In this document: one piece after another, positions 8,201-46,700 of the stretch | Layout of the letters: each line of letters opens with the position of its first letter | Numbering within the stretch: position 1 is the stretch's first letter | Notes under the pieces: model-generated | Told to the model about the DNA's origin: nothing | Database searches by the model: none | The model's input: only the letters and a program-made list of their open reading frames with translations | Origin: a virus | Direction: 5' to 3' (one strand) | DNA length: 64,000 nucleotides | IMG/VR virus record: IMGVR_UViG_3300030328_001638 | Span: 1-64,000 of that record | Made by a program: the position numbers and the translations under genes

Positions 8201-9826
8201 TTATTTAGCTCTTTGATGAGTAACAATAGCGTTTGTACTTAAGATAGTAGTAGCTACACTTATAGCATTGCTTAATGCATGTTTAGTTACTTTAAGTGGA
8301 TCAATAACTCCTAACTTAAACATATTCCCATACTTTTCATTTTTTACATCATACCCTAAAAATTCTTCTTCTTCTAATATTTTTACAGGAATATTGCTTT
8401 CCTTAAGTATGTCTTTATAATCTAACCCTGCGTTATTTAAGATTTGGACAAGGGGGGCTTTCAGAGCTTCCATCAATATATGTTTCGCTGCTTTGTCATT
8501 TTTATTATTCTTGTTTCCGCAGTCACAGTCCTGTAATGAGGTAGAGGCATTCCATAAAGCGTATCCTCCTCCAGCGATAATACCTTCTTCAAGTGCTGAC
8601 TTGACAGCACATACCGAGTCATCGACTCGGTCAAATTTTTCTTTTTGCTCTACATCACTATTACCTCCTACATATATACATCCTATTCCTCCTGATAGAC
8701 TTGCTATTCTTTCATTTAAGAATGTTTTTTGATTTACATCTGTAGTTGTTTGTTGTTGAACCTTAAGTTCTGCTATACGATTATCTATTTCTTCAGTACG
8801 AATATTCTCTTTTAATATAACTGTAGATTGTTGGCCTACTATTATTTTGTTTGCATGTCCTAAATCATTAGGAGTAATTAAACTTAAGTCGTCTCCTGTC
8901 TTTTCAGAATAGTATTTAGCTCCTACTGCTAAAGCAATATCTTGCATTAACTCATGTTGTTTGTATCCAAACTGCGGAGGTTGTATATTACAAAACTTTA
9001 AACCATTACGAACTACATTAGCTGCAAGGGTATTTATTACATTGGTAGTACACGTTCCTATTATTAATAATTTTTGATTATTATTAATGACGGGTTTTAG
9101 TACATTTTCAATTTGAAGTATATTGCTTATTTCACTATCACAAACTAAAACCTTAACATCATCTAATATACACTCATCTTTTCTTTGGTCATTAATAAAT
9201 AAATTAGAAGTGTATCCTCTATTTATTTTAATTCCGTTTGTTATCTCAGAATAAGTTTCTGATGTCATAGATTTCTCTACCGTTACTACTCCGTCTTTTC
9301 CTACCTTGTTATATGCCTGGGCAATAATCTTTCCTAACTCTTTATCATTGTTAGCCGAAACAGAAGCTACATCTAAAAGTTTCTTTTTATTTACTTTCTG
9401 TGATCCTTCTTTTAAATACTTAAATACTCTTTCTTTGTTTTCATTAACAAACCTAATGACCTCAGTAATATTGTGGGTATCATTTATAATCTCTTGACCT
9501 GCTTTAATAATTGCTTCAGTCAATACAATAGCTGTAGTTGTTCCATCACCCGCTGAGTTAGCAGTTCTATTAGCTGCATCCTTCATCATCTGTATTGCAA
9601 GATTAGATACAGGGTCGTCTAACTCAATCGACCTCGCTACCGTCACTCCGTCTTTGGTAACTGTAATATTATTAGTATGTTCTGGGGATTCTATTAAAAC
9701 TGTATTACCCTCTGGGCCGAGTGTACTTTTTACAGCTTTAGATATTATGGAAATTCCTTCAATTAGTTTTTGTCTTCCTTCATCATCAAAGCAGACATCT
9801 TTTGGTATATAGCCTGAAACGCTCAT
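8201..9826 (-). CDS. groEL: GroEL-type chaperonin (Cpn60)
   Basis: A 541-aa full-length group I chaperonin. Motifs are in the canonical order: TLGPEGN (about 35-41), TKDGVTVA (57-64, with Asp60 matching the ATPase Asp52), GDGTTTA (93-99, with Asp94 matching Asp87), RVDD then EEGIIAGGG, and a C-terminal GVIDPLKVTKHAL. The C-terminus lacks the GGM-rich tail and ends THQRAK. The lid region carries an extra Asn/Lys/Asp-rich Cys-containing insert (QDCDCGNKNNKND). It forms an operon with groES. Its upstream region has a TATATTTG box and iteron-like repeats. It is probably used to fold capsid, terminase or other virion proteins. Confidence 0.97.
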   Translation of the reverse strand: MSVSGYIPKDVCFDDEGRQKLIEGISIISKAVKSTLGPEGNTVLIESPEHTNNITVTKDGVTVARSIELDDPVSNLAIQMMKDAANRTANSAGDGTTTAIVLTEAIIKAGQEIINDTHNITEVIRFVNENKERVFKYLKEGSQKVNKKKLLDVASVSANNDKELGKIIAQAYNKVGKDGVVTVEKSMTSETYSEITNGIKINRGYTSNLFINDQRKDECILDDVKVLVCDSEISNILQIENVLKPVINNNQKLLIIGTCTTNVINTLAANVVRNGLKFCNIQPPQFGYKQHELMQDIALAVGAKYYSEKTGDDLSLITPNDLGHANKIIVGQQSTVILKENIRTEEIDNRIAELKVQQQTTTDVNQKTFLNERIASLSGGIGCIYVGGNSDVEQKEKFDRVDDSVCAVKSALEEGIIAGGGYALWNASTSLQDCDCGNKNNKNDKAAKHILMEALKAPLVQILNNAGLDYKDILKESNIPVKILEEEEFLGYDVKNEKYGNMFKLGVIDPLKVTKHALSNAISVATTILSTNAIVTHQRAK

Positions 9827-11146: not shown

Positions 11147-11647
11147 ATGAATACTAAAATGAACACTTTAATGACAAAAATTACGAATGGCGATATGGCA
11201 AGATTATCAATCATATTGCACAGACATATCGTTGTGAATAATCCTCAAGATTGTACAGAGGGATTAGAAGAATTAAATTCTAAACTAAAACAGATGGTTG
11301 AGAGCAATACTCATTCTCACTACTCCCTTGATATTCAAGGTTGTTCTGATGCACACAAGTTGCACGAGGGACAAACCATATCATTGGGTTTAGGAGTGAA
11401 TAGATTAGAGGAGTTAGAGAAGGAATTTGAAGAATGGATGAATGAGAATGTTTATCAGAATGTGGATGGTAGTTTCTCAACACAAGATGCACAATGGAGA
11501 AATAGAATCCAAACAAAGAATGAGTTGAAAAAATACTTTCTACGAGAGTTTAGAGAGTTGGAAGAGATAAGCGATAGAGAGAAAAATTACAATCCTAATG
11601 AAAACTATATAAGGGGAGGATTTAATCCATTTAAAACTAAATTATAA
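11147..11647 (+). CDS. Early protein, unknown function
   Basis: A 166-aa acidic, mostly helical protein. It begins MNTKMNTLMTKITNGDMARL, has a His/Ser segment (VESNTHSHYSLDIQG) and a charged helical second half (NRLEELEKEFEEWMNENVYQ). Its stop codon TAA (11645-11647) forms the 5' strand of stem I of the hammerhead ribozyme that follows. Translation through the stop would therefore disturb that fold. No conserved domain is recognised. Confidence 0.65.
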   Translation: MNTKMNTLMTKITNGDMARLSIILHRHIVVNNPQDCTEGLEELNSKLKQMVESNTHSHYSLDIQGCSDAHKLHEGQTISLGLGVNRLEELEKEFEEWMNENVYQNVDGSFSTQDAQWRNRIQTKNELKKYFLREFRELEEISDREKNYNPNENYIRGGFNPFKTKL

Positions 11648-11704
11648 CTGATGAGGATTCAAAATCCGAAACAAGATGATTGTGAAATTCTCTTGTATTA
11701 TAAT
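11641..11704 (+). ncRNA. Hammerhead ribozyme, type I (HHR1)
   Basis: All elements of the family consensus are visible. The core CTGATGA is at 11648-11654. Stem II GGAT/ATCC (11655-11658 with 11664-11667) has a 5-nt loop and the required G10.1-C11.1 pair, followed by GAAA (11668-11671). Stem III ACAAGA/TCTTGT (11671-11676 with 11691-11696) closes a 14-nt loop. The cleavage-site base is A11697 (GUA triplet). Stem I is 7 bp, ATTATAA (11641-11647) with TTATAAT (11698-11704), and open-ended, hence type I. Cleavage is predicted after 11697, 25 bases before the ATG at 11723, separating the upstream message from the downstream one. Sequence-based only; activity is not tested. Confidence 0.9.
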
Positions 11705-11722
11705 AAAAATAAAACAATAATT

Positions 11723-11941
11723 ATGAAAACCGAACACTTAACTTATGAATGGGAAATCTCTCCTAACAATATTGTAGAGATTGACTATACCTACTCTCAA
11801 GAGAGTGGAGACTATCTACAACCACCTTACGAAGAAATTGAGATAGACAGAATGACTTTAAATGGAGATGATGTAACAGATAGATTACACGATACATTTG
11901 AGTATGAAATTATAGAAGAAATTACTAACCAAACACTTTAA
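11723..11941 (+). CDS. Small acidic protein downstream of HHR1
   Basis: A 72-aa protein from the ATG at 11723 (MKTEHLTYEWEISPNNIVEI). An earlier in-frame ATG at 11651 lies inside the ribozyme core and would encode a basic extension unlike the rest, so the 11723 start, preceded by AAAACAATAATT, is preferred. The protein is rich in Glu/Asp/Tyr, with no recognised domain. It is followed 3 bases later by the 155-aa gene. Confidence 0.65.
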   Translation: MKTEHLTYEWEISPNNIVEIDYTYSQESGDYLQPPYEEIEIDRMTLNGDDVTDRLHDTFEYEIIEEITNQTL

Positions 11942-14246: not shown

Positions 14247-14744
14247 ATGGGACAATATTATATGCCGATAAACAAGACCAAAAAAGAGTATCTAAATCCT
14301 CATACTTTTGGCAATGGACTTAAACTAATGGAATTCACAAGTGATGGAAGAGGAGTGTTACAAGGACTATCTCTACTACTTGCTAATGGTAATGGTAGAG
14401 GGGGTGGAGACCATCCAAGTGGAGACAAGCTGATAGGATCATGGAGTGGAGACAACATCACAATTGAAGGAGATTATGCTGACAATTCACTATGGGATGT
14501 TATAGCTAAAGATGAGGACAAGAAGAAACCACAATGGAAAGATGTAAGCATACCTACATACAGACTCTTACTGCAAAATACTTGGGTTGGTAGAGAGATG
14601 GAAGAAAGAATACTTAAAAGTGGTACACAATTTATGATGCAAGATGAGAAAAAGTTAATGGAAGAGTTATTTCCAAAAGCTTGTGTAGAAGGAGATTTGC
14701 GACAGAAATTTGACTTTGTAGAAAAAGGACAATCTGATGAGTAA
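14247..14744 (+). CDS. GQYY-type early protein, unknown function
   Basis: A 165-aa protein with the N-terminal MGQYYMPINKTKKEYLNPH and GNGLKLMEF, a Gly/Asp/His centre (GNGRGGGDHPSGDKLIGSW) and IEGDYADNSLWD. A family of bacterial and phage hypothetical proteins starting MGQYY and containing GDYAD is known to me, without an assigned function. The last five codons form part of stem I and the core of hammerhead HHR3, and the stop (14742-14744) lies in stem II. Confidence 0.7.
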   Translation: MGQYYMPINKTKKEYLNPHTFGNGLKLMEFTSDGRGVLQGLSLLLANGNGRGGGDHPSGDKLIGSWSGDNITIEGDYADNSLWDVIAKDEDKKKPQWKDVSIPTYRLLLQNTWVGREMEERILKSGTQFMMQDEKKLMEELFPKACVEGDLRQKFDFVEKGQSDE

Positions 14745-14788
14745 AGGTTTAAACACCTACGAAACACCTCAATTTGAGGTGTAATTGT
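14729..14788 (+). ncRNA. Hammerhead ribozyme, type I (HHR3)
   Basis: Stem I 5' strand is ACAAT (14729-14733). The core CTGATGA is at 14734-14740. Stem II starts G14741 and ends C14760 (GTA/TAC, two-base bulge, then GGT/ACC). GAAA is at 14761-14764. Stem III is a perfect 8-bp hairpin ACACCTCA/TGAGGTGT (14764-14771 with 14775-14782, loop ATT). The cleavage base is A14783 (GUA), and stem I 3' strand is ATTGT (14784-14788), extendable by two G-U pairs. All invariant bases fit. The 5' part is inside the coding sequence of the upstream gene, and cleavage would fall 24 bases before the ATG at 14808. Confidence 0.88.
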
Positions 14789-14807
14789 TTAATTTAAAAA
14801 TAAAATT

Positions 14808-15011
14808 ATGAGTAATTTAAGCTATTGCAGATTTCAAAATACTGCACGAGATTTAAGAGATTGCCTAAACGCAATTGAAGATGGTCAGATAGATGACTTA
14901 TCATTTGAGGAATTCAAAGGAATACAACAAATTCTGCAGGATTGCGAAACCTTAATGTTTATGAAGGAAGAGATTGAAGATGAGATAGGAGTAGAGCCAT
15001 CCAGAAACTAA
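14808..15011 (+). CDS. Small acidic protein downstream of HHR3
   Basis: A 67-aa protein, MSNLSYCRFQNTARDLRDCL then an acidic helix (EEFKGIQQILQDCETLMFMK) and end GVEPSRN. The start MSNLSYCRFxNTxxDLxDC is a pattern I associate with short conserved phage and plasmid proteins of unknown function. It is the first gene after the predicted HHR3 cut, with a TTTAAAAATAAAATT leader. Confidence 0.6.
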   Translation: MSNLSYCRFQNTARDLRDCLNAIEDGQIDDLSFEEFKGIQQILQDCETLMFMKEEIEDEIGVEPSRN

Positions 15012-15731: not shown

Positions 15732-15806
15732 TGCGAGGTAGAGCAGTCAGGTCAGCTCGTTGGGTTCATATCCCAAAGGTCGCAGGTTCAAATCCTGCCC
15801 TCGCAC
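15732..15806 (+). tRNA. tRNA-Met (anticodon CAT)
   Basis: A full cloverleaf. Acceptor TGCGAGG (15732-15738) pairs with CCTCGCA (15799-15805). The D-arm is GAGC/GCTC. The anticodon stem TTGGG/CCCAA has loop TTCATAT (anticodon CAT). The T-arm is GCAGG/CCTGC with loop TTCAAAT. The first base pair is T-A rather than the C-A mismatch of bacterial initiator tRNA, so elongator Met is favoured; a lysidine-modified Ile2 tRNA cannot be excluded. CCA is not encoded. The apparent discriminator base is C, which is unusual. Confidence 0.9.
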
Positions 15807-15837
15807 CTAAAGGCAAAAAGTTTTTTATATTAATTAG

Positions 15838-43778: not shown

Positions 43779-46700
43779 TTAACAATTACTAATTTGAGTT
43801 ATTACTCCATTTGCATCTACAACAAGATATGTTCCTGAGTTTGTTCCATAATATCCTGAAATCGCTGTTGCGGATGATTCACAACCTGCTGCATTAAATA
43901 ATAAATCTCCTACTACAGGAGTAGCTCCTTGACCTATAAAATAATAAGTCTGATTTCTTACCATATTACACGCAAGTAGAGATGAAGTTTGAGGTTCAGA
44001 AAGGGTGATTGATGTACAAGGAATTGTGCAATTACAACACGCATCACTTAAACTTATATTACTATAACATAAATATTGATCAGCAATAGTCCTAAAGTCA
44101 TATATTAAATATAAATACTCATTCGCATCAGGAATGGTTGCGCTATTTTGTATCCCTCTAAATACATTAGTAGAAGGTTGGGTTACAACTAAAGAGTTTA
44201 AAGATTGACCTAATAAAGCTGCAATATCTGTAGCATTATTCCCATATAAAGTGTTGCTTGAAAACCATTTCAGCGTATCAGTTGCTGTGTCAAAATCATA
44301 ATTATCTTGAAATATTTTATTAGTCTGTACAATTAAATTAGCCCCATCATAAGGAAAATATCCTGTTGACCGAATCCCTTGCTCTAAGTAATATAAAGAA
44401 GCTATAGTGGAATCAGAACCAAAAATCATTTGGTTACTTAATATAGGAGAAGTACTTTGTGCATTAGACCAACCCATTTGACAATGTAATAATTTATTTG
44501 CATCGTTAATTGTATTTAAACCGACTTGCACGATAGTTATGGTTTTCTCTACAGGACAATCTACTACAATCTCATAATTACAAATTCCTGAAGGAGTAAG
44601 CTCTAAGCTAATGGTATCAGGAGTAGCTGATGTTTTATTAATTGTTATAGTGTAAACACCTGCTCCTGTAGGGCTGATAGTTTGAGGAACTCCATTCCAC
44701 ACCGCTGTTAAAGAACAACCACCACTTCCTGTAAATAAAGTTAATGTTACAACAACACTTCCAATAATAGACCCTACATCTACAGTATAAGAAGTTATCC
44801 CCGAACAGTCTATATCAGCTATAATTGTTCCACAAGGAACAGGTGGGTCTGGAAAAGGTACTTGGATATCGTTTGTTCCCAATACATATTCATCCATATA
44901 TGGGTCAAAACCTCCTAATTTTTGCGTAGTTAAAGAAACTTGAAACTGATCCCTAAACCATGAACGCATTCCTTCACTCGAAATTACCACTAACTCATCT
45001 GTATTAAAAGACGAACCACGTAGTTTTAATACCGCTCCTCTTTTAGCATCTGTAAAATACATATCGTAACCATATGATATAAAACTTTCAGGATTAAAAC
45101 TATTTCCATATTCTTCTAATCTTGCAACTTGCTCTCCTAAAACTTCAGGTACAGAAGTTACTGTTCCACCTCCTACTGCATCTGTTAATATATTTTTTCC
45201 CGCTAAGACATAGCTTATTCTATCTTCTTGTAAAACTAATATGTCAGTTTTTCTTGCATGTAATACTTGGATTTCTCCAAAATGAGTTTCTAAATCTTTA
45301 AAATTAACTAACCCTAAATTAAACTCATTTAAGTTATTTTGATTGGATTCACCGCTAAATATTCCACTATAAGTTACTCCTGCAAATCTATTAGCTTCTT
45401 TAAAATCTTGATTTGATACAGCTAATGCTCGTTCTCCTAATTGAAAAGACATTCCATCTAATCGGTCTTGTATCTTATAACTTTCCACTCCATTTCCAAA
45501 GCTATAGCAGTTAAAAAATGGAATTGTCAGTATAGATGGACTTCCTGCTGCTGTTTGATTTTGATCCGCACTATTGTCGGTATGGATAATTACATAAGCC
45601 TCCCCTGGGGTTGTAAATATAGGTGTATCTAAAGTTAATTGAATATTGCTATTAACTACTGTTACAGTTGCAGTTGCACCTGTAGTTGTGTTATAAACAA
45701 AATCACCTACCTGTACTGAAACTGAAAATATTCCTGTAGTGTCATTTAACTCTGAACCGTTTACACTTGTTACAGTTCCATTAGCTACTTCTGATCCTGA
45801 CGCATGTTGCCCTGCAACAATCGGGTAGCTAACTGATGAATCATAAAAAATCTCTGAATTAGCTTCATTTGGTTCAGTCTCAAAAACTATTAAATCCCCT
45901 CCTTGTGTTACGTCCACGCTTAATCTTGAACGAGCTGTTCGGGCTGCTGTTCCTGAAAGTCCTGGTCTATAACAGAGATATATAGGCGAACCATCAACCA
46001 ATGGGTTGTCTGCGACAAACTGAATATTACCATACCATTGGCCTTGGGGACAGTTAGCTGAAGTCATTGGGTTATTATTATCCCTACAAGGTGGTACGTA
46101 TATGTTTAATCCAAATGCCCCCGTACAGGAACTACCTAAATCGTAAGCAGCCTTGGACGATAAAGTTGTCTCAAAGAAAACATCGTCATAATCCCCGTTC
46201 CCTGTATTTGTACCACTACCTAAATCTGGTTGTGCGGCTACCCACCATAGATATAAATTGGCAAAATTTTGAGCAGCGGTAAAAGTTTGTTTATAATTAT
46301 ATTCTATAGATTCAGTATTTCCGCTATTACTTTCATTTCTCCATACATGAAGCGTGATAGTAATTTGTGCGCCTGCATTAATAGGTATATTAGTTTTTAC
46401 GCCATTATTACCTTCTATTACATAATCCTCATCATACCACCACCCTTGTGCTGTGGTTGAGCCTGGCGTACAAACATTACCGCTGGTGGTTTTTCCAAAC
46501 CCATTTGGATTCCACCAAGTCTGTGGTACAGCGTCATCACTAACTCTCCATTGTTGAGGAACCATATTCATATAAAAACCTGCAGGACTTTTTACTGTTG
46601 AATCAGCAGGGTCAGGGCGAGGGTCAATAAAGTTTATTTCTTGTGCTTCAGCCGCCAATACCTCAGCTTTTATTTCGTTATTTTGCGCACCATCTGCGTC

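Follow-up and report, generated by a model that had tools for sequence, protein, structure and literature searches.

Putative self-cleaving type I hammerhead ribozymes between early genes of a phage genome and their relatives in other phages

Two junctions between early genes in the window, which is the complete stretch of 64,000 nucleotides of viral DNA analyzed in this study (IMG/VR record IMGVR_UViG_3300030328_001638, positions 1 to 64,000), each carry a type I hammerhead motif. The assignment of the first motif (HHR1) to the type I hammerheads is strongly supported, with core, stems, covariation, homologues and position all pointing in the same direction. It appears likely that HHR1 and the second motif (HHR2) are self-cleaving ribozymes which would separate the cistrons of an early polycistronic transcript in cis. 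Hundreds of related ribozymes are similarly placed in other phages, and phages equipped in this way probably split long messages into separate mRNAs without the help of a protein. The coordinates of both motifs and of the adjoining genes are given in Table 1.

Table 1. Coordinates of HHR1, HHR2, the adjoining genes and the predicted leaders in the window.
Feature	Position	Strand	Remarks
Early gene upstream of HHR1	11147..11647	+	166 aa, no family match
HHR1, type I hammerhead motif	11641..11704	+	sequence, descriptor, covariance model (47.6 bits, E = 2.5e-12)
HHR1 stem I, 5′ strand	11641..11647	+	last 3 bases are the TAA of the upstream gene (11645-11647)
HHR1 core CUGAUGA	11648..11654	+	
HHR1 stem II, GGAU-UCAAA-AUCC	11655..11667	+	strands 11655-11658/11664-11667; stem covaries in relatives
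HHR1 core GAAA	11668..11671	+	final A is A15.1, pairing with U11696
HHR1 stem III hairpin	11671..11696	+	ACAAGA/TCTTGT, 11671-11676/11691-11696, 6 bp; hypervariable among relatives
HHR1 cleavage triplet GUA	11695..11697	+	predicted cut 11697/11698
HHR1 stem I, 3′ strand	11698..11704	+	start of the predicted downstream fragment
Predicted leader after the HHR1 cut	11698..11722	+	25 nt (family median 26 nt)
Gene downstream of HHR1	11723..11941	+	start set by homologues
Gene upstream of HHR2	14247..14744	+	final codons (GQSDE, stop) inside the ribozyme
HHR2, second type I hammerhead	14727..14790	+	descriptor, covariance model (36.5 bits, E = 9e-9)
HHR2 stem I	14727-14733/14784-14790	+	
HHR2 core	14734-14740, 14761-14764	+	CUGAUGA and GAAA
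HHR2 stem III and triplet	14764-14782, 14781-14783	+	triplet GUA; predicted cut 14783/14784
Predicted leader after the HHR2 cut	14784..14807	+	24 nt
Gene downstream of HHR2	14808..15011	+	67 aa, phrog_8760, function unassigned

The helices of HHR1 (7, 4-5 and 6 bp) form a three-way structure which is open at stem I. Stem I has no internal loop, while stem III continues past a 1x1 mismatch into an extension of 4 bp that is capped by a GTGA tetraloop. The pairs G10.1-C11.1 (G11655-C11667) and A15.1-U16.1 (A11671-U11696) are present and the triplet GUA fits NUH. An earlier sequence-only reading had described HHR1 as a complete hammerhead of type I at a junction of early genes, with CTGATGA, GAAA, GUA, stems of 7, 4 and 6 bp, an intact G10.1-C11.1 pair and the stop codon of the upstream gene in stem I, and direct inspection confirmed all of these elements. 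Its predicted 5′-OH end at 11698 is likewise the position expected from the motif. That a chance agreement is very improbable, as had also been claimed, is borne out by 300 dinucleotide shuffles, which together yielded ten loose descriptor matches (0.033 per 64 kb) and no strict match. HHR2 was absent from that reading; it has the same size as HHR1 (64 nt), but its stems differ.

Searching both strands of the window with the descriptor returned exactly two type I motifs, HHR1 and HHR2. Both were also found by a covariance model built from 33 relatives with the window excluded (scores in Table 1), and beyond these two the model gave no match above noise in the whole window. Its third match (45827-45864; 15.8 bits, E = 0.035) was rejected as noise, the structure being mostly absent. 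Further CTGANGA...GAAA matches in the window (17 vs. 3.7 expected) were also rejected, as their stems are absent, and this surplus probably results from the coding composition.

A search of the window with Rfam 15 at gathering thresholds reported neither HHR1 nor HHR2, the sole match being a tRNA. Of the known models, RF00163 (Hammerhead_1) and RF03152 (RAGATH-1-hammerhead) describe the same core and type I topology as present in HHR1 and HHR2, yet for neither motif does either model reach its cut-off. With relaxed thresholds, RAGATH-1-hammerhead matched HHR1 with 24.6 bits compared to a cut-off of 56.3. The sequence-only reading had named the lack of an Rfam hit above threshold as an outcome that would speak against its assignment, and formally HHR1 does fall below threshold. 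This is no refutation because Rfam also overlooks nearly all of the evident relatives, calling only 2 of about 74 descriptor-positive copies at 12 related loci. The miss of HHR1 is a false negative.

Several properties of HHR1 are less favorable. It belongs to the least stable 4% of the family folds because its stem I consists entirely of A-U pairs, and its GUA triplet is rarer in the family than GUC (38 vs. 222). When HHR1 is folded with flanks of 40 nt, a rival fold is favored by 2.5 kcal/mol (-17.1 vs. -14.6). The segment GGATTTAATCC at 11615-11630, just 5′ of HHR1, is similar to HHR1 stem II, and the two can pair in the rival fold. The idea that the rival fold (141-nt context) acts as a switch was dismissed, as there is no sign of its conservation, and the fold was instead counted as evidence against cleavage.

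Starting from the gene upstream of HHR2, homology searches arrived at viral contigs in which one to four type I hammerheads lie between early genes. Pattern scans of IMG/VR retrieved 8 stretches with the HHR2 core, 98 with the HHR1 core and 108 with a GUGA-loop variant, while a viral control scan with the reversed HHR1 core pattern retrieved none. A general core pattern gave 39 matches in 13 related records and its reversed control gave 0. The HHR1 core was found in only 2 stretches of about 85,000 bacterial and archaeal genomes, compared to the 98 viral ones, and the HHR2 core in no stretch of the bacterial and archaeal genome contigs. In the related phages the copies lie on the coding strand, with up to 14 per record, and the largest arrays in single viral records comprise 14, 13, 10 and 10 copies. 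A contig of 5.8 kb that was binned into an Aliivibrio MAG contains nine type I hammerheads (L228:534-4571) and is probably a stray phage contig.

The sequences CUGANGA and GAAA are invariant in the relatives. Within an alignment of 33 sequences, 14 of 16 pairs changed on both sides (145 cells), among them all six pairs of stem I, and all three stems covary. None of 500 shuffles came near this result, and sliding the partner by one column lowered the pairing to less than 40%. Standard pairs occupy 98.5% of the cells, a percentage that is partly built in since the 33 members were picked with the descriptor; the diversity of pair types is not affected by this choice. The MAFFT alignments A1-A3, in which the 3′ half was wrong in some rows, were left out of the model. 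Copies near HHR1 (L013, L014 and L018) have an identical stem I and core and a near-identical stem II, together with a stem III whose sequence is wholly unlike that of HHR1 and which carries long inserts in some of them.

Although the scan pattern admits both type I and type III hammerheads, 162 of 166 distinct instances were type I (137 clear and 25 weak), the others being one type III and three without assignment. An apparent type III hammerhead was observed at L037:4380-4450, in the same genome as type I copies. Stem I is flanked on either side by a conserved unpaired A (96% and 96% in the 6/4 stem class), and loop II is constrained. A minimal hammerhead does not account for these flanking A residues, which may contact loop II.

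The placement of the ribozymes relative to genes was analyzed for 287 non-redundant copies, which were gathered via their core pattern and thus represent a sample and not a census. From the predicted cut to the next frame-opening ATG the median distance is 26 nt (IQR 21-32), and 81% of the copies, compared to 16% of random positions, have a distance of 15-40 nt. Of the 287 predicted cuts 21 fall within a same-strand ORF with a length of 60 aa or above, vs. 1758 of 2870 random positions. Stop codons were counted for 267 copies: in 229 of them the upstream stop lies at most 12 nt before the ribozyme or inside it (111 copies have it at most 12 nt 5′, 73 within stem I, 30 within the core and 15 within stem II or beyond), and in the other 38 it lies far 5′ of the ribozyme. 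The leaders are A-rich when pooled (46% A), and 75 of the 254 that were inspected for motifs contain AGGAG or GGAGG.

For the gene downstream of HHR1, an ORF start at the in-frame ATG at 11651, inside the HHR1 core, was ruled out because the homologues begin at 11723; the alignments with L014_9, L017_10 and L048_3 open at residue 25 of the 11651 ORF. Both this mechanical gene start and the annotated one at L219:6035 fall within a ribozyme, and the true starts are probably further downstream. No relatives turned up in a search with the protein encoded upstream of HHR1. The early gene run also includes a tRNA with a CAT anticodon (15732-15807), and a gene for a GroEL-like chaperonin (phrog_5725) is located at 8201-9826.

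Early transcripts of phage T7 are cut between cistrons by the host RNase III, which leaves a hairpin at the 3′ end of the upstream message. A similar outcome is proposed here for the window phage, with cuts between early cistrons and a hairpin at the upstream 3′ end, but whereas T7 relies on a host protein, the cutting agent would be the RNA itself. HHR1 and HHR2 would self-cleave co-transcriptionally between two cistrons. The upstream mRNA would then end, shortly past its stop codon, with stems II and III and a 2′,3′-cyclic phosphate, an end expected to resist 3′ exonucleases, while the downstream mRNA would begin with a 5′-OH end and a short A-rich leader of ~25 nt. A type I cut would place all hairpins of the ribozyme on the upstream message and leave the downstream one with only 5-7 nt of stem I. 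This topology would fit the cutting of cistrons because the downstream leader would be unobstructed and the 3′ end protected. Cutting between cistrons would account for the small spread of leader lengths, for the almost exclusive type I topology and for the arrays. Counted against it are homologous genes without an adjoining ribozyme (in L007 behind the HHR2-type gene, and in the window itself at the DNA methyltransferase gene), together with the weak fold, the rival fold and the GUA triplet of HHR1. The restriction to two junctions counts against it as well: as this genome has many early junctions and a ribozyme at only two of them, the ribozymes are no general cistron separator here.

An unlikely, though not far-fetched, alternative is that the purpose of cleavage is the 5′-OH leader itself, as a shield from 5′-monophosphate-dependent decay or as a standard leader, and not the separation of cistrons. 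The narrow leader length would fit this idea, as would the ribozymes of L115, L119, L121, L126 and others, which directly follow a TTGACA-17-TATACT-like promoter; these promoter-like sites were, however, recognized by eye, and the ribozymes of the window, like those of most relatives, are found after a stop codon within a gene run. Furthermore, such a role overlaps with the cutting of cistrons and does not exclude it. Hammerheads with a GUGA loop located after a promoter-like site and before a small gene were observed in L115, L119, L121, L126, L128, L129, L155, L162 and L190, the small gene in L115 being phrog_4973. For the hammerheads of this L115 group a role restricted to the 5′ end, i.e., the trimming of a 5′ end, seems likely.

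It is quite improbable that, as the sequence-only reading had suggested for HHR1, the ribozymes act as translation-gated switches, in which a ribosome terminating in stem I, the core or stem II keeps the ribozyme unfolded so that cleavage reports on upstream translation. The stop codon does lie inside the ribozyme in 118 of 267 copies, 30 of them in the CUGANGA core, and close 5′ of it in the 111 copies mentioned above, and HHR2 and two relatives even encode the C-terminal residues of the preceding gene product (GQSDE in HHR2, with its TAA in stem II, and EQSEE and EQSDE in the relatives; in a third homologue the protein ends just before the ribozyme). Yet the compact gene packing of phages predicts an equal overlap, the stop codon is located just before stem I in many copies and far upstream in 38, and there is no evident reason why small unrelated genes should all need such a coupling. 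A cut between cistrons that always leaves the stop codon of the upstream gene on the 5′ fragment would be simpler than a coupling to ribosomes and would explain more.

The gene content next to the ribozymes varies, and L014 is distinguished from L017 by exactly one gene together with one ribozyme, located between two ribozymes; in L008 an additional gene separates HHR2 from the homologue of the gene located downstream of HHR2 in the window. These observations would be in line with ribozyme repeats serving as boundaries of cassettes, i.e., as recombination homology by which small early genes are shuffled, with cleavage being a by-product or shielding neighbors from inserts. We regard this explanation as decidedly doubtful: recombination does not need covarying base pairs, a type I topology or a fixed distance to the ATG, and the free variation of stem III weakens the ribozyme as a block of homology. 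That the motif is a non-catalytic conserved hairpin, such as a terminator or a protein site, which merely looks like a hammerhead is highly improbable given the invariant CUGANGA and GAAA, the correct three-way topology and the covarying stems, as such a conserved core is a requirement of catalysis and not of a terminator.

Copies at or near gene junctions are also present in Flavobacterium Elemovirus strains, Methylophilales phage MEP301, Pelagibacter phage Jormungand and Cellulophaga phage phi18:3, while the relatives-based model had no match in phi40:1, Calle_2, Gundel_1, Panino, MW202828, phi14:2 and crAss001. At the ribozyme junction 68 Elemovirus records align. Among the inspected Elemovirus strains stem II reads GGTT/AACC in some and GACT/AGTC in elemoA 13-1A, a difference which, judged from the sequences, is a natural compensatory change; in elemoF 6-3D it is mispaired (GACT/AACC). 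The terminase and structural proteins of the window phage match those of Elemovirus, Pachyviridae and Pervagoviridae phages, which by sequence places it as a relative of phages of marine Flavobacteria, with members of these three groups as its closest cultured relatives. A classification as crAss-like was rejected, as the terminase and structural matches lie elsewhere and Cellulophaga phi14:2 and crAss001 are without a ribozyme copy.

Hammerheads of types I, II and III are known from bacteria, many of them near integrase genes, and prophage hammerhead clusters flanking single genes or short blocks were described for Agrobacterium tumefaciens (a triple at ardA), Azorhizobium caulinodans and Clostridium scindens; three tandem arrangements cleaved in vitro, and one triple array did so in E. 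coli (Perreault et al., 2011; PMC3088659). As mRNA processing was already proposed for these arrays (PMC3088659), the kind of system is not new. Both the prophage arrays (PMC3088659) and the present family have several hammerheads flanking genes or blocks, with two in the window and up to 14 per relative. In contrast to the prophage arrays (PMC3088659), which sit in bacterial chromosomes, the present family is nearly absent from host genomes and occurs almost only on viral contigs, nearly all of its members are type I and the spacing from stop codon over ribozyme and leader to the ATG is narrow. No report of hammerheads in these phages was found in the open literature, which is weak evidence as most subscription papers were outside this scope, and the paper on the Elemovirus host (PMC7077304) does not mention ribozymes. 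New aspects are a branch unseen by Rfam, the near-absence of this branch in host genomes, its narrow spacing, its almost exclusive type I topology and the cultured phages that carry it.

As Rfam annotation overlooks most of this hammerhead family, self-cleaving RNAs in phages are under-counted. The position rule predicts 5′-OH ends ~26 nt 5′ of start codons and 2′,3′-cyclic-phosphate ends shortly 3′ of stop codons, and it bears on the role of phage hammerheads, a question since the array report of 2011. With Elemovirus, phi18:3, MEP301 and Jormungand being cultured carriers, this role can be tested now. It is conceivable, though we would stop just short of calling it probable, that a scheme widespread in phages uses type I hammerheads as a regular component of early operons, in the order stop codon, ribozyme, 5′-OH leader of ~26 nt and start codon. 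If so, each such cistron would gain a 3′ end that is protected from the outset and a leader of uniform type without any need for host RNases, and the scheme would suit phages irrespective of whether their hosts use Shine-Dalgarno leaders.
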